From: Lachnospiraceae bacterium
Lineage (GTDB): Bacteria; Bacillota; Clostridia; Lachnospirales; Lachnospiraceae
DNA: 64,000 nt
Direction: 5' to 3'
Assembly (NCBI GenBank): GCA_023664345.1
Contig: JAMPFQ010000003.1
Span: 170,653 to 234,652, forward strand
Shown: in pieces, positions 3,171 to 21,347 of the stretch
Layout: each line of letters opens with the position of its first letter
How positions within the stretch are numbered: position 1 is the stretch's first letter
Notes under the pieces: model-generated
Told to the model about the DNA's origin: nothing
Database searches by the model: none
Seen by the model: the letters and a program-made list of their open reading frames with translations, nothing else
Made by a program: the position numbers and the translations under genes

Positions 3171-4097
3171 TCACATTTTCCCAAATCCCTCTTTCACTTC
3201 TCTGTCATTTGCCAGGATGAAATGGCCGGGGCGGATTTCCTGCCATTTAGGCGGATCTTTATCATAGTCGTGGACGGACGGGTCATAGACCGTCAGTTTC
3301 TTCTCCCGCTCCCTGATGGGATCGGGCATGGGGATCGCGGAAAGCAGCGCCTTTGTGTAAGGATGGGCAGCATGGGTGATCAGTTCCTCCGTCTCCGCCA
3401 GTTCCACGATACGCCCCTTATACACTACCGCGATCCTGTCGGAGAAATATCGCATCACCGACAGATCGTGGGCAATGAAGATATAGGTGATCCCACGGGA
3501 TCTCTGCAGAGAGGCCAGCAGGTTCAGCACCTGGGCCCGTATGGACACATCCAGGGCGGAGATGGGCTCGTCCGCGATGATGCACTCCGGCTCCATGATC
3601 AGGGCCCGGGCAATGCCGATCCTCTGCCTCTGTCCGCCGGAAAATTCATGGGGAAAACGGCTGGCAAACTCCGGCAGCAGCCCCACTTCCGCCAATGCTT
3701 TCTGCACCCTGTCCATCCGCTCCTCATTGCTGATCTTCTTGTTCAGGTTCAGCAATCCCTCGCTGACGATATAGTCCACCTTTGCGCGTTCGTTCAGGGA
3801 GGCCATGGGATCCTGGAATATCATCTGGATCTCCTGGATGATCTGTCTGTCCAGCTGGCGGCTGATCTTGCCGTTGATCCTGTTTCCCTTATAACGGATC
3901 TCTCCCGCCGAAGTGGGGTGGATCCGCATGATGGCGCGTCCGATGGTTGTCTTGCCGGAGCCGGACTCTCCCACGATGCCGAAAGTCTCCCCGCGATATA
4001 CCTGAAAACTTACGCCCCTGACCGCCTCGAAAGCTTTTTTGCCGTTTCCGAAAGTGACGTGTAAGTCCCTTATGTCCAATAACACTTCTCTCTCCAT
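3171..4097 (-). CDS. oppF: oligopeptide ABC transporter, ATP-binding protein OppF
   Basis: A 308-residue ATPase with Walker [10 protein letters not shown] (about residue 45), Q-loop, ABC signature [10 protein letters not shown] and Walker B IIADEP, followed by the C-terminal extension typical of the peptide/nickel subfamily. It powers uptake together with OppD at the cytoplasmic face. The start at 4097 is chosen because GGAGG is 5 bases upstream; an ATG at 4109 is in frame but poorly placed. An 8-bp GC hairpin (4110-4128) separates it from oppD. Last gene of the opp operon. Confidence 0.93.
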
Positions 4098-16536: not shown

Positions 16537-16582
16537 AATCTTATGTTTGGACGAAACAGTATTGCACATAAGGATGGGGAAC

Positions 16583-17893
16583 ATGCGGCGAAGCAATGAT
16601 TTTTCACTTTTTTATATAGCGGACGTGCCTTATCTGCTGCCTTTCGGACAGGGCATAGCGGATTTAAGGAGGGGCATCCAGATCAATGATACCGGAGCGT
16701 ATCTCTGGACGCTTTTGGCGGAAGAGCGCTCGGAGGACGAACTGCTCTCCCTCTGCACCGCACATTATGAAACCCCTGATCCTCAGCTGCCGCAATTGAA
16801 ATCTGACCTGCTGCAGTTTCTCCATATGCTGGATATTTTCGGGATGCTGGATTGGTCTGATGACCTGGCCCGTTCCAATGCCAAATCTGATCCCTCCAGT
16901 CATGATACCGGAAATATCTCCCTTTCGGACACCGATAACGGCCTCGCTTCCCCCGACGGCACAGGCGCACAGGGCAGTCCGGGAACTGCTCCCGTCCATT
17001 CTGCCGCTGTAAGGCGTTATCTGTCCATCGGCGGCCTTATGCTTCTGCTCCGTGGATCCGCCGAGGCATTTTCGCAGGAATTTGACGCTTTCGAGATCTT
17101 TCCGGAACCTGATCCGGCTGGCATCCCTGCATCAGGCGATGCCGTTCACGTTGACCAGACGGTCATCGTCACAGAACTTGCGCCCGAAGTCCGCCCCGAA
17201 AGCAAAACCTTGCTGCAAAATCACGAACTGACTGTTATGGAAAGCGATCTGCAATATATCTTCCTGTTTCCTGCATCGCCGGGGATCCGGGAAGCACGGC
17301 TGACAAAGGACGGGACGGATGCACGTTATCATTGCTGCCCACCCTATACCGAGAGCCTGCGGCATGACTTATTCCACGCCATCAGACTTTCCTTTTTATA
17401 CCTTGCGCAGTTACATGATATGGTCGTGCTGCACTCCGCCTCCCTGCTCTACCGGGACAGGGCATGGCTTTTTTCCGGGCACTCCGGCGCCGGGAAATCC
17501 ACCCATACTAATCTTTGGAAAGAACTCTATGATGTCGCCCTGATCAACGGTGACTTAAACCTGCTGTCCATGGACAACGGACAGCCTCTGGTCCATGGGT
17601 TGCCCTGGTGCGGGACTTCGGGAATCGCTGATACCCATTCCTATCCTTTGGGCGGCATTTTCTTTGTCAAAAAAGCGCCACAGAACCATATCGACGCTCT
17701 TGACGCAAGCCGCGCCCAGCTTCTTGTCGCCCAGCGGCTGATCTCTCCAAGCTGGACGGAAGCTCTGTTACAGAAAAATCTGTGCTTTGTGGCAGAACTT
17801 GCCCCGCATATCCTGATCTGCCGTCTGCACTGCACCAAAGGACCGGAAGCCGCCAAGACGGCGAAGCAGGCGATCGATGACTATCTGGCCTAG
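16583..17893 (+). CDS. PqqD-like (RiPP recognition) domain fused to an HPr-kinase/PEPCK-like P-loop domain
   Basis: A 436-residue protein. Residues about 1-95 have the PqqD/RRE pattern (PYLLPFGQGIADLRRGIQIN, then TGAYLWTLL and DELLSLC). A Ser/Asp/Gly-rich linker (about 100-140) follows. The C-terminal half (about 260-436) contains the kinase-like P-loop FSGHSGAGKSTHTNLW, followed by INGDLNLL and HGLPWCGTSG, the layout of HPr kinase/PEPCK-type proteins found in lasso-peptide and other RiPP clusters. PqqD domains bind precursor leaders, and relatives of the kinase domain phosphorylate precursors, so a leader-binding kinase is inferred for the three small proteins nearby. Start set by AAGGA. Ends overlapping the exporter gene by 4 bases. 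Confidence 0.8.
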   Translation: MRRSNDFSLFYIADVPYLLPFGQGIADLRRGIQINDTGAYLWTLLAEERSEDELLSLCTAHYETPDPQLPQLKSDLLQFLHMLDIFGMLDWSDDLARSNAKSDPSSHDTGNISLSDTDNGLASPDGTGAQGSPGTAPVHSAAVRRYLSIGGLMLLLRGSAEAFSQEFDAFEIFPEPDPAGIPASGDAVHVDQTVIVTELAPEVRPESKTLLQNHELTVMESDLQYIFLFPASPGIREARLTKDGTDARYHCCPPYTESLRHDLFHAIRLSFLYLAQLHDMVVLHSASLLYRDRAWLFSGHSGAGKSTHTNLWKELYDVALINGDLNLLSMDNGQPLVHGLPWCGTSGIADTHSYPLGGIFFVKKAPQNHIDALDASRAQLLVAQRLISPSWTEALLQKNLCFVAELAPHILICRLHCTKGPEAAKTAKQAIDDYLA

Positions 17894-19671
17894 AATCCCC
17901 TCACCATCTCCTCTATCTCCGCATCATCCAGGACGACACACTTCTTATCCCGGATAGCGTATACCCGCGTACAGGCCTCCAGCACCGTAGGCCTGTGAGT
18001 GGTGACGATACAGGTCCTGGGATAACTGTCCTGCATGATATTCCGAAGCACTTTCCTCTCCGTTGCAACGTCAAGGGCGGAAGTGGCTTCATCGAGAAGG
18101 AGCAGCGGAGACTTTCGGAGGATTGCCCGGGCAATGGAGAGACGCTGGGCCTGTCCTTCCGAGAAGCCGCCGCCCCTCTCCTTGATTTCACTGTCGATCC
18201 CGTTTGGCAGTTTCTCCACAAAATCCCATGCGCACGCCAGTTTCAGCGCCTCTATGATCTCCTCGTCCGTGGCATCCTGCTTTACATTCCGCATATTTTC
18301 CGCTATCGTACCCGAAAACATGGTGTTGCCCTGAGGGACATAGGAGAATAATCTTCTGGTGGAAGGGGTCAGGGGGATCTTCTCCGTTCCTGCTTCCCCT
18401 TCTTTTCCGCCGCCGCAAACGACCGCCAGTCCCCCCTGCGTCCGCATAAGGGACAATATCAAGCGAATCAGGGTGGTTTTCCCCTCACCGGAAGGTCCTA
18501 CCAAAGCTACAATTTCATGGGGATAAGCCTCCAGTGAGGCGTGGGAAAATACCTGTGTCCCGGTCATATAGCCATAATCCATATCCGATACCTGCAGACC
18601 AATTCCCTGATTTCTATATTTATCCAAAAAGACATTCACTTCATCATTCTGGCTGTAATCTTCCCTGGGCATCTCCACAATGTCCATCAGCCTCCCGGCG
18701 GAGGTAGTCAGACTGATTGCAGAAGGAATCAGGGAAGTCAGATTATGCAGCGTGCCTGTCAATGTCCCTGACAAACTTAGAAACATGGTCATGGAACCAT
18801 AGCTGATGGCTCCGCTCCAGACACGATAAATTCCCCATCCATACGCGGCGTAAGATACCATCATCCCCACCGTGGACAGTAACAGCGAAGTTCCCATGGA
18901 CATCCTCTGAAAGCTTAAACGCATGCCAATATATTCTTTCTGATATGATTTCAGTTTTTCCACGTAGAGATGTATCAGATCAAAAGCTTTAATTGTCTGG
19001 ATGTTGGAAAAAGTTTCCTGGTTAAATCCCGACATTTTCGCACCCATCGCTGCACTTTTTTTGTTGTTGTTCACCATACGGTTCATGAGGGTTCTGGACA
19101 GAATCAGACTGACAGGCATACCCAGAAAAGCAAAAACCGCAAAGGATGCGTCATGATATACAACCATGGCAAAAGAACTGATAAAACGGAACACATAGAT
19201 GATCATATTAGGTATAAAACTCAATACGCCAGTGGATATGGTTGAAGCATCAGATCCCCATCTGGTCAGCAGATCGCCGGTATGATAGTTGGTGAGGGAT
19301 TCCCAGTCCGTTACCAGGATTTTGGAAAAAATATCGGATTTTATTTCCGCATCCACTTTCATGCTCAAATAACTGGAAGCATAACCCGATACCTGGGACA
19401 GGAAGGTATTTCCCACCCCCAATCCTATCATGATGCAAAATGTCTGAATCACCATCCCGGTCTGATGTCCCGTAATAATATCAACAAGATCTCTGGAAAT
19501 GAGACTGGAAAGTAATGATACCACCGTTGAAACCATTCCCAAAAATGTATAAAAAATCATAACTAACCAGTATTTTCTCACATACTGATAAATCCACTTC
19601 GTCTGTATCCACATTTCCTGGAGACGACCTGCTTTAATACGGCCAATAATGAAAAGCATTTTCTCTTTCAT
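17890..19671 (-). CDS. ABC exporter, fused permease-ATPase (half transporter)
   Basis: A 593-residue type IV exporter: membrane domain with six helices (about 20-320) and C-terminal ATPase with Walker A GPSGEGKTTL, a signature of the form FSEGQAQRLS (glutamate replacing the usual Gly), Walker B LLLLDEATSALD and a switch histidine in TTHRP. It lacks an N-terminal C39 peptidase domain. The start at 19671 (MKEKMLFIIG) has AAGGA upstream and gives the normal family length; 32 more codons are open upstream but have no ribosome binding site. Lies behind three leader-bearing small genes on the same strand and is the likely exporter of their products. Confidence 0.85.
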   Translation of the reverse strand: MKEKMLFIIGRIKAGRLQEMWIQTKWIYQYVRKYWLVMIFYTFLGMVSTVVSLLSSLISRDLVDIITGHQTGMVIQTFCIMIGLGVGNTFLSQVSGYASSYLSMKVDAEIKSDIFSKILVTDWESLTNYHTGDLLTRWGSDASTISTGVLSFIPNMIIYVFRFISSFAMVVYHDASFAVFAFLGMPVSLILSRTLMNRMVNNNKKSAAMGAKMSGFNQETFSNIQTIKAFDLIHLYVEKLKSYQKEYIGMRLSFQRMSMGTSLLLSTVGMMVSYAAYGWGIYRVWSGAISYGSMTMFLSLSGTLTGTLHNLTSLIPSAISLTTSAGRLMDIVEMPREDYSQNDEVNVFLDKYRNQGIGLQVSDMDYGYMTGTQVFSHASLEAYPHEIVALVGPSGEGKTTLIRLILSLMRTQGGLAVVCGGGKEGEAGTEKIPLTPSTRRLFSYVPQGNTMFSGTIAENMRNVKQDATDEEIIEALKLACAWDFVEKLPNGIDSEIKERGGGFSEGQAQRLSIARAILRKSPLLLLDEATSALDVATERKVLRNIMQDSYPRTCIVTTHRPTVLEACTRVYAIRDKKCVVLDDAEIEEMVRGF

Positions 19672-19781
19672 GCCTGTAAATTCCTTCCATGGCAGAAATA
19701 CCTGGTTTGATATCCCGGAACAATTTATCTTCTCGAACACAATAAATGTTTCAAAGAGCAGACCCATAAATGCAGCTACTG

Positions 19782-19840: not shown

Positions 19841-20251
19841 TTAATGCTGCCCACAATCATGGTTGCAAATCAGCTGCGCACCGCTGACATCCAAACCTGC
19901 ATCCGACTCAACAATCACATCGCCCAGACCGATATTATCATAATCATTATTATGATAACTATAGTCAATACTTATGGATGCAGTGCCATCACCGCCAGCC
20001 AGTGATCCATTAGAACTCTTGTATGTAACAGCCTGATTAAAATACAGAATCAACGTCTGCTTTCCACTGTGATGACTGTCGCCGGCCGCATGAATTGCAT
20101 CCACCTGAATACGATAATCTCCTCTGCCTGTTTCCGGCTCCTGGTGAATACGAGTTGTTACCGTATAACAGTCGCCACCCGCACCACTGGCAGCATACAC
20201 ACTTTCAGCCAATTCTTCATTGATAAGGACAATCGGTTTTTCATATTTCAT
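19841..20251 (-). CDS. leader-bearing small secreted protein/RiPP-like precursor, copy 1
   Basis: A 136-residue protein starting MKYEKPIVLINEELAESVYA and continuing ASGAGG. This N-terminal leader is shared with the next two genes. The remainder is hydrophilic with beta-strand periodicity (IQVDAIHAAG, LILYFNQAVTYK, ASISIDYSYH), Gly/Asn/Asp-rich turns and three cysteines (one after the leader, two near the C terminus). No hydrophobic signal peptide. The start at 20251 has GGGGGA seven bases upstream. A leader ending in AASG followed by GAGGD resembles the small-residue cleavage sites of peptide leaders; the exporter is next in line. Confidence 0.75.
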   Translation of the reverse strand: MKYEKPIVLINEELAESVYAASGAGGDCYTVTTRIHQEPETGRGDYRIQVDAIHAAGDSHHSGKQTLILYFNQAVTYKSSNGSLAGGDGTASISIDYSYHNNDYDNIGLGDVIVESDAGLDVSGAQLICNHDCGQH

Positions 20252-20331
20252 TTTTGATTCCCCCATTTCCACACTGCCAAATACCACAAAAACTGCCTTT
20301 GTTGTACTTTTGCAACTTAAGAAATCTGCTT

Positions 20332-20697
20332 TTAATATGCCAGGCCATTCTCATCGTTTACCATATGATCCTCAGCAAATCCCTCACTCTCCCATGTAGG
20401 CATCCGCTTGCCATTGTCCACATCATAGCTGGTAGCTCCGTCCAGATACGCCTGGTCAATCTGTAACCCGCAACCTTCCTCACGATATGCCGGGCATCCT
20501 ATACAACCATAATGTTCCTTTACAGTGTTATTCCACCCGCCCTGATAATGCTGGTAAATCCCAGCCATATACTTGCTGTCACAGCCGGGTCTGCCATTGC
20601 TGCCATCTGAATTACTGATGACTGCGCCGCTGGCAGCATACACTCCTTCCGCCAATTCCTCATTCGCCAATACTATCGGCTTTTCATAGCTGCTCAT
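20332..20697 (-). CDS. leader-bearing small secreted protein/RiPP-like precursor, copy 2
   Basis: A 121-residue protein beginning MSSYEKPIVLANEELAEGVY then AASGA, the same leader as its neighbours. The cargo differs from copies 1 and 3: it contains four cysteines (PGCD, YGCIGC, EEGCG), several Gly/Tyr-rich turns and an acidic C terminus. Start at 20697 is set by GGAGG eight bases upstream; a longer frame exists but lacks a site. It has its own strong promoter at 20759-20787, and copy 1 follows after 80 bases without an evident terminator, so copies 2 and 1 are probably one transcript. Confidence 0.75.
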   Translation of the reverse strand: MSSYEKPIVLANEELAEGVYAASGAVISNSDGSNGRPGCDSKYMAGIYQHYQGGWNNTVKEHYGCIGCPAYREEGCGLQIDQAYLDGATSYDVDNGKRMPTWESEGFAEDHMVNDENGLAY

Positions 20698-20758
20698 TGC
20701 TATACCTCCCATCTCCAAATACATTATAACAGTAAATATACCCACATCTACTATAATT

Positions 20759-20787
20759 ACTATAATACAATTTTATTGTAACGTCAA
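20759..20787 (-). promoter_or_regulatory. promoter of leader genes 2 and 1
   Basis: TTGACG (20782-20787) and TATAGT (20759-20764) on the minus strand, 17-base spacer, in an AT-rich stretch 60 bases before the start of copy 2. Confidence 0.75.
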
Positions 20788-20844
20788 TATAAAAGGCTTT
20801 TTGCTCTTTAATTCAATCTATTCAGAAAATTCATATAAACTGTC

Positions 20845-20890
20845 AAAAAAAGCGAAGACGAGTACGGAAAAGAAACCCATACCCATCTTC
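20845..20890 (-). terminator. intrinsic terminator of leader gene 3
   Basis: A 14-bp stem including G-U pairs (20854-20867 with 20877-20890) followed on the minus strand by seven U residues. Lies 44 bases behind the copy 3 stop. Confidence 0.85.
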
Positions 20891-20933
20891 TCAATGTAAA
20901 TAACCTGATAATTCCAGGCATTTGCTTACAATA

Positions 20934-21347
20934 TTACATATGATGCTTTGTGACAATCGACGTATATCTCAAATCGGTCGCACCCTCTCCGCTGATCCAG
21001 ACACCCTCATAAGAACAGCCCGAATCAGAAGGAATAACGCTTGCTTTCTCCACAATAACCTTATTGCCGGAAATAGTACCATTGATACCATTATCCAACT
21101 TTACGGTAGCGGGCAGATCCGCAGCAAAAGTAATCTCCACATAAATATTGTTCCAGTTTTCCTCTGCGATATGTGTACGGCTTGCATCCTGAACGATTTC
21201 AAAATACAGCCAGTATCTTCCGCCACTGTTCGGAGTTTCACGGATATTCTGAATCTCAAAACAATCACATGCCGCCACACTGCCGGAAGCCGCGTAAACG
21301 CCTTCAGACATTCCCATATCCAAGATCTGAGGTTTTTCGTAGCCCAT
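20934..21347 (-). CDS. leader-bearing small secreted protein/RiPP-like precursor, copy 3
   Basis: A 137-residue protein starting MGYEKPQILDMGMSEGVYAA then SGSVAAC. It shares YEKP, the acidic residue and VYAASG with the two genes downstream. The cargo resembles that of copy 1 in length and in strand pattern (YWLYFEIVQ, NIYVEITFAADL, ATVKLDNGINGTISG) and looks like a small beta-sandwich, perhaps of the carbohydrate-binding-module kind; this is inference. Three cysteines. Very strong ribosome binding site AAGGAGGGG. Own promoter at 21398-21426 and own terminator, so it is a separate transcript. Confidence 0.75.
   Translation of the reverse strand: MGYEKPQILDMGMSEGVYAASGSVAACDCFEIQNIRETPNSGGRYWLYFEIVQDASRTHIAEENWNNIYVEITFAADLPATVKLDNGINGTISGNKVIVEKASVIPSDSGCSYEGVWISGEGATDLRYTSIVTKHHM

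Follow-up and report, generated by a model that had tools for sequence, protein, structure and literature searches.

A shared leader, a PqqD-kinase fusion and an ABC exporter suggest a leader-directed export route for small proteins tied to Pel-type loci in Lachnospiraceae

Introduction

Three adjoining genes in a Lachnospiraceae genome encode small proteins that begin with nearly the same short leader and continue into dissimilar cores, and the question they raise is what reads this leader and where the proteins that carry it go. Leader recognition of the RiPP type is known for peptides that mature into natural products, and in NHLP systems one leader serves many cores. The genes lie in a 64,000-nucleotide stretch of genomic DNA (the window), for which an earlier sequence-only reading had proposed a leader-directed export or RiPP-like system. 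The explanation that we favor, with somewhat more confidence than doubt, is leader-directed export of small proteins that is tied to a Pel-type exopolysaccharide. The same reader logic would then apparently serve protein-size cargo and be linked to a locus for a biofilm polysaccharide in a gut-associated family.

Results

The leader genes adjoin an exporter and a PqqD-kinase fusion

The locus comprises the following features, given as positions in the window.

16547..17893, plus strand: PqqD-kinase fusion of 448 residues, N-terminal domain PqqD/RRE-like and C-terminal domain HprK-like kinase, P-loop SGHSGAGKSTHT
17890..19767, minus strand: ABC exporter with fused membrane and ATPase domains (PF00664, E 2e-31; PF00005, E 4e-23)
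19841..20251, minus strand: cargo protein A, leader plus type A core, 136 residues counted from the leader ATG; MKYEKPIVLINEELAESVYAASG
20183..20251, minus strand: leader of cargo A, 23 residues
20332..20697, minus strand: cargo protein B, leader plus type B core, 121 residues; MSSYEKPIVLANEELAEGVYAASG
20626..20697, minus strand: leader of cargo B, 24 residues
20934..21347, minus strand: cargo protein C, leader plus type C core, 137 residues; MGYEKPQILDMGMSEGVYAASG
21282..21347, minus strand: leader of cargo C, 22 residues

As the sequence-only reading had claimed, the three open reading frames share a leader and differ in their cores, and the exporter and the PqqD/kinase-like gene, which are convergent, adjoin them. 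A Shine-Dalgarno-like sequence lies within 20 nt upstream of the leader ATG in all three genes, so that the leader is very probably the N-terminus. On one side the locus is flanked by a Trp-tRNA synthetase gene and on the other by tRNA-Met and tRNA-Val. When one 35-residue leader was used to query the source genome, it retrieved itself, the second leader at E 6e-7, the third at 0.06 and a fourth, on contig C9, at 0.03, with no further match at E of 10 or below. The fourth leader gene sits between a gene for an S26B-type peptidase and a second fusion/exporter pair, and the grouping of leader, fusion and exporter therefore occurs at two places in one genome.

The same gene order, with all three cargoes present, was found in a Blautia sp. 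MAG (L013), the single relative recovered from a scan of genome contigs. Measured against their L013 counterparts, the three cargoes have dN/dS values of 0.12, 0.24 and 0.12 and are therefore under purifying selection. A terminator-like hairpin of 15 pairs followed by a T tail (20854-20890, minus strand) lies between cargo C and cargo B; such hits occur in this region at chance level.

The leader combines a YxxP box with a fixed end

We collected 45 leader proteins from 23 genomes and MAG L013, leaving out the decayed leader of genome G096. Their leaders are 22-28 residues long and follow the pattern Y-x-x-P-x-[IVL] ... E-x-[VI]-[YF]-x-x-S-G, with an end that mostly reads EGVYAASG. The YxxP box is present in 44/45 leaders, with x-[VIL] always next (V 31, I 10, L 3), and the E-x-[VI]-[YF]-x-x-S-G end in 45/45; profile A3 and the regular expressions were derived from leaders already found, so that these fractions describe the collected set and not an independent one. 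The Ser that precedes the final Gly is the sole hydroxyl residue common to all 45 leaders, the Tyr of the box being found in 44. Ahead of the last three leader residues stands Ala in 37 of the 45 and Met, Leu or Thr in the remaining 8. The sequence-only reading had also noted the absence of a hydrophobic signal peptide, and this extends to the whole set: no hydrophobic core of the Sec type occurs near the N-terminus of the 45 proteins, in which the highest mean hydropathy of any 19-residue window within the first 40 residues is 1.22 (Kyte-Doolittle).

A YxxPxL box is reported in lasso leaders from Actinobacteria and from the bsf cluster, according to the accessible portions of PMC6784204 and PMC10368454, respectively. 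Two further frames resemble the leader proteins in part. At L118, which lies on the contig of the relative L169 and about 19 kb away from it, a 74-residue frame starts with KMKNYARPELKANEERMENVALYSG and has a Cys-containing core. At L186, a 56-residue peptide (3596-3766), MEKKVYITPDVEVIEFEVEDIMMTSG..., has a YxxP box and an SG end and lies near an ABC exporter gene; its sequence perhaps points to a wider class of such leaders.

Leader, fusion and exporter occur together

Among 397 Lachnospiraceae genomes, a 26-row leader profile, built from leaders already found and applied at a threshold (E of 1e-6 or below) that was fixed after the lists were known, matched 23. The fusion was found in 25 genomes and both in 22 (Fisher p 7e-32, with genomes taken as independent; about 19 genera are represented among the 23 leader genomes). 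Alternative ways of counting give p 1e-29, when G213 is left out, and 1e-31. The leader count leaves out three of 26 matching genomes, whose matches are weaker than 1e-6 (G047, 0.002; G143, 0.004; G221, 0.008), and the fusion count, for which the cut-off was likewise chosen with the list in view, leaves out four of 29 (G007, G047, G221 and G346), each with a kinase frame of 285-321 residues that lacks the PqqD half; G023, G049 and G213 were kept in the fusion count though doubtful. The first profiles, run on 200 family genomes, likewise placed leader and fusion together. Because the source genome alone matched the leader profile at E of 0.001 or below among 398 phylum-wide genomes, the leader seems confined to Lachnospiraceae.

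The two genes are also close to one another. In 19 of the 22 shared genomes a leader gene lies at most 3 kb from the fusion; the distance is about 36 kb on the same contig in G135, and in G240 and G389 the genes are on different contigs. G146, a 68% complete assembly with three leader genes and PelG, is the sole leader genome in which no fusion was found. Conversely, G023, G049 and G096 have a fusion and no leader match, and in G096 a decayed leader gene between fusion and exporter keeps EGIYAGSG and has lost the YxxP box. At the 25 fusion loci (two from the source genome, one from the MAG and 22 others, excluding the orphans of G023 and G049), searched with neighborhood families that were built from the first loci, we found the exporter at 24, a leader gene at 21, the S26B peptidase at 18, a nucleotidyltransferase at 14 and, within the stretch taken, PelG at 8.

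The sequence-only reading had staked its proposal on co-occurrence with the exporter and the PqqD-like gene. The leader does not occur mostly without either of them: 22 of 23 leader genomes have the fusion, and the exporter accompanies nearly every fusion locus. As far as gene content can tell, a tie of the leader to one machinery is strongly supported. With regard to mobile elements, cargo A gave no phage match and no fusion relative was confirmed in viral contigs; one plasmid record (Butyrivibrio) matches 42% of the fusion.

The fusion is a candidate leader reader

The fusion of the window matches PF05402 at E 4.7e-8 over residues 43-96 (Pfam), and with the fusion itself present in nearly all leader genomes an RRE-like domain is coupled to the conserved leader. 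Searched against PDB sequences, fusion profile A4 matches the lasso B1 protein TbiB1 best (E 0.0028), with TfuB1 at 0.06. In the kinase half the P-loop and the NGD residues are conserved across 15 aligned members, and the match of the window's fusion to TIGR04352 (HprK_rel_A) is at E 0.003, far under the cut-off of the model.

We count against our preferred explanation the weak PqqD matches of divergent members, which do not concern the window's fusion. Among ten divergent fusions, PF05402 is above its cut-off in three (G389, G255 and G240), below it in three (G359, G363 and G391) and unmatched in four (G213, G023, G049 and G304). The fusion profile spans the whole protein of G304 despite this non-match; in G213 it covers the kinase half only, and the N-terminal half is PqqD-like by eye only. 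G023 and G049 hold orphan PqqD-kinase-like proteins (L166 9245-10351 and L167 9246-10442, respectively), which have no adjoining exporter, no normal P-loop and no PF05402 match and which, from their sequences, are perhaps decaying or repurposed copies.

In the bsf lasso cluster, where RRE, kinase and nucleotidyltransferase are separate, the RRE greatly boosts the action of the kinase on a YxxPxL precursor, as described in the available part of PMC10368454. Because RRE and kinase form one protein here, leader-guided phosphorylation is a natural guess.

Lasso proteases and cyclases are absent from the loci

Lasso clusters with a kinase and a nucleotidyltransferase (paeninodin for the kinase, pseudomycoidin and bsf) likewise have a YxxPx[LIV] box, a PqqD-type RRE, an HprK-like kinase, a nucleotidyltransferase and an ABC exporter, as the accessible sections of PMC10368454 and PMC8498205 describe them. 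In contrast to those clusters, the loci considered here have RRE and kinase fused, an S26B peptidase in place of the transglutaminase-like B2 enzyme, and cargo of protein size. In the 24 genomes searched, PF13471 (B2 peptidase) was over its cut-off in two (G096 and G213) and weak in three, including the source genome, with no match on a fusion contig. PF00733 (cyclase) had no match in the source genome; a match occurs somewhere in 23 of the 24 genomes, at its closest 19 kb from a fusion (G304) and in the rest on other contigs or far away, in assemblies that are fragmented. We rejected membership of the lasso peptides and do not file the system with them because the B2 protease and the cyclase are missing from the loci, though nearly all leaders have the lasso-type box. 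By analogy, the leader-reading step seems to work like that of a lasso system. In G096, contig C2 (198013-206703) has asparagine-synthetase-like and PF13471 matches within 9 kb; judged by sequence, this pair is likely a true lasso cluster. G096 is the one genome with a decayed leader that no longer has the YxxP box, and neither PelG nor an S26B gene was found in it.

An S26B-type enzyme is the likely leader peptidase

No C39 peptidase domain is among the 25 Pfam families matched in the window's exporter. Since the exporter is without a peptidase domain, the S26B enzyme is the likely leader peptidase. In 21 aligned rows, two of them from the cousin loci described below, S44, M45, P47, H84, R85, G98 and D99 are invariant in the family boxes S-M-x-P, H-R and G-D, which we take to mark a peptidase of the Ser-His type. 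The nearest families are the archaeal-type signal peptidase, the Ni-SOD maturation protease, SipW and SEC11; TIGR02228 matches at E 1e-12, under its cut-off, and the best PDB matches are SEC11A/C (E 0.009-0.011). An S26B-like gene was found genome-wide in 22 of 24 genomes, G389 having a weaker split match only, and in G096 and G146 a genome-wide search did not find one. Near the window locus the gene is missing, the single copy of the source genome being the one at the C9 locus. As judged by eye, the S26B proteins have no N-terminal membrane segment; both points count against our preferred explanation.

As to where the leader might be cut, which is a guess, a VxA|ASG cut fits a -3/-1 rule for the 37 leaders with Ala, and a cut after the invariant SG, where the sequence-only reading had placed it, fits equally well. 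The Met, Leu or Thr found at that position in the other 8 makes for a poor fit to one signal-peptidase rule.

SipW of Bacillus is an S26B-type peptidase dedicated to the matrix proteins TasA and TapA, which have Sec signal peptides and are exported by Sec. The system described here resembles it in the type of peptidase and differs in a leader without a hydrophobic core and in an ABC exporter. Another small S26-family protease is the one of TIGR02754, which we take to be the nickel superoxide dismutase maturation protease and which three of the S26B proteins match at E 5e-7 to 0.03, all below the cut-off. In contrast to Ni-SOD maturation, the residue after the leader varies and Cys has no constant position. 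A nickel-hook reading that followed from this likeness was dropped: from the end of the leader to the first Cys there are 0 to more than 100 residues, and 4/45 cores have no Cys.

Small residues at the leader end and an adjoining ABC exporter could also indicate a plain leader of the double-glycine kind, with the PqqD-kinase fusion acting on another target. We rejected a double-glycine C39 system, given that the exporter matches no C39 family and that all 45 leaders end in SG and not GG; the near one-to-one occurrence of leader and fusion and the resemblance of the YxxP box to RRE-read leaders also argue against this reading, which we regard as extremely unlikely.

The cores are diverse and of protein size

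The three window cores fall in separate similarity clusters. Type A is a single-linkage cluster of 21 cores and type B one of 10 with four conserved Cys, and type C is found only in the window and L013. Core length ranges from 53 to 138 residues; Cys occurs in the cores of 41/45 leader proteins, and types B and D have 4-5 Cys per core. A Pfam/NCBIfam search of the three window cores gave no family above cut-off, and for the type A cores neither a Pfam family above cut-off nor a PDB sequence was matched. A match of type B to a lectin (E 0.52) was disregarded, and an hhalign comparison of types A and C gave a probability of 12.6%.

Models of cargoes A and C, made from two-row alignments, are of low confidence (mean pLDDT 51 and 60) and mainly beta, and CBM2-type domains, which bind cellulose or chitin, are their top structural matches, with no Foldseek match at E 0.001 and Z scores below 8, a middling value on the scale of a tool by which unrelated folds score 6 to 7. 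CBM2-type domains thus head the matches of two cargoes that are not clearly similar to each other, in models of low confidence. The RiPP-like part of the sequence-only reading fits leader recognition, with its YxxP box and lasso-B1-like domain, and fits less well with cores of this length, several of which resemble beta-sandwich domains more than short modified peptides.

The leader genomes share a Pel-type locus

A recurrent set of genes surrounds the fusion, comprising the S26B peptidase, fusion, exporter, leader genes and a PF14907 nucleotidyltransferase, followed by a flippase, Stealth, DUF4874/4832, glycosyltransferases and PelG (Pfam names from L078). PelG was found in 23 of 24 genomes checked, the exception being G096, and all 23 leader genomes therefore hold it. 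In the set of 200 family genomes, PelG is over its cut-off in 35, namely in 13/13 with the leader and 22/187 of the others (p 2e-11). The peptidase, the nucleotidyltransferase, the second copy of the locus and this genome-wide link to a Pel-type locus had all escaped the sequence-only reading.

In the source genome itself the Pel-type locus lies on contig C2, away from the contig of the window, which counts against our preferred explanation. It contains a stand-alone PqqD protein, an epimerase-family gene like the extended PelD of Gram-positive loci, a PF11997 protein, which is presumably PelF-like, PelG and the nucleotidyltransferase. Stand-alone PqqD-like proteins of 87-119 residues are encoded at L182 (5857-6126, the C2 locus) and also at L080, L084, L093, L077 and L155; in L182, L080, L084 and L093 the gene directly precedes the epimerase-PelD-like gene of the Pel-type locus. 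Gram-positive Pel loci with an epimerase-PelD and DUF4832 accessories have been described (PMC7112168, in the part available), and the PelD with an epimerase domain, PelF, PelG and DUF4832 accessory of such pelDEADAFG loci are also found here. The accessories named in that part of PMC7112168 are CotH, polyphosphate polymerase and DUFs, and PqqD is not among its terms.

The link to PelG bears on a reading in which a RiPP-type system secretes the cores as antimicrobials or signals, those of the Cys-rich types B and D above all, and the Pel association is incidental. One leader with diverse cores, the 4-5 Cys of types B and D, and a leader box, RRE, kinase, nucleotidyltransferase and ABC exporter such as occur in some lasso clusters would suit a bacteriocin or signal; the presence of PelG in 23/23 leader genomes as against 35/200 in the family, the gene order shared with polysaccharide genes at many loci, and cores of 53-138 residues, two of them modeled as mainly beta, speak against it, and we hold it to be unlikely. 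In passing, no gene for immunity or a bacteriocin was noticed.

The same strong tie to Pel would be expected if the cargo did not leave the cell and regulated Pel synthesis under the control of phosphorylation, the exporter carrying something else. The kinase fusion and the lack of a classical signal peptide are consistent with such regulators. The exporter at 24/25 fusion loci, the peptidase at 18/25, the Cys in 41/45 cores and the CBM-like matches of the low-confidence models are not, and this reading is in our view very improbable.

Finally, the kinase-nucleotidyltransferase pair could be central, the cargo being phosphorylated and then glycosylated, with export of a glycoconjugate as what matters. 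A protein of the NTP_transf_5 family (PF14907) is encoded at 14/25 loci, the kinase motifs are retained, and a kinase-then-nucleotidyltransferase route is already described (review PMC8498205, as far as accessible). Phosphorylation followed by glycosylation is reported for the lasso peptide pseudomycoidin. However, the nucleotidyltransferase is beside neither fusion locus of the source genome and sits at its C2 Pel locus, and no acceptor conserved over all cores was seen, which makes this reading quite unlikely.

Discussion

In the mechanism that we favor, small proteins would be made with a leader of 22-28 residues, the PqqD (RRE-like) half of the fusion would bind the YxxP box in the way that the B1 proteins of lasso systems bind their leaders, and the substrate would thereby be brought to the HprK-like half, which probably phosphorylates it. 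The S26B-type (SipW/SEC11-like) peptidase, whose gene lies beside the second copy in the source genome, would trim the leader at the VxxSG end, and the ABC exporter would carry the core out, where many cores may become part of a Pel-type matrix as small carbohydrate-binding-like proteins. The link between leader and machinery is well supported by the genomic evidence. Binding by the RRE, kinase and peptidase activity, and export are what family knowledge leads us to expect, and sugar binding is a guess.

A more elaborate version, which is also a guess and to which we give little credence, would couple secretion to phosphorylation and tethering. The RRE-kinase would phosphorylate the leader Ser, S26B would cut at VxA|ASG to leave a phospho-Ser near the new N-terminus, and the nucleotidyltransferase would join a sugar or polymer end to it, so that the exported protein would be anchored covalently in the Pel-type matrix.

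Taken together, the findings suggest an export route for carbohydrate-binding-like proteins into the biofilm, of which the literature searched gave no account; that search covered titles and the beginnings of abstracts, with few subscription journals. In the portions of two RRE surveys (PMC12710340 and PMC7470986) that were available, the terms kinase, HPr and polysaccharide did not appear. If the proposal is correct, it would describe a way of secretion that does not depend on Sec and uses a portable tag of about 24 residues; many small proteins without a name would gain a role, and the reader-kinase, the peptidase and the exporter would have substrates that can be tested directly.

The system can be set beside other families that have parts in common with it. 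It is like NHLP systems in having one leader and many cores and differs in the length of the leader; NHLP leaders are atypically long and structured (PMC12455567, in the part accessible). The HprK-like proteins of the window and of a related locus weakly match HprK_rel_A and ScmC, far below their cut-offs, which recalls the SynChlorMet/HPr-rel-A cassettes of NCBIfam. In contrast to those cassettes, a radical SAM protein was not noticed at the fusion loci; one is present at the cousin loci. At L169 (6752-14373), L118 and L168 (6243-9600) there are relatives in which the PqqD, kinase, S26-like and ABC genes are separate.

At three cousin loci (L187 6714-12400, L188 6397-9379 and L189 6641-10347), an S26-like peptidase and an HprK-like kinase lie near a radical SAM protein, which was recognized by Pfam for L187, by NCBIfam for L187 and L189, and from the sequence for L188. 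A nucleotidyltransferase is also found at L187 and L189. To judge from these genes, the cousin loci seem to form a related leader system that uses radical SAM chemistry. L187 and L188 also encode a PqqD-like protein and a protein of 127-135 residues with NEY[VI]AACGDSG near its start.
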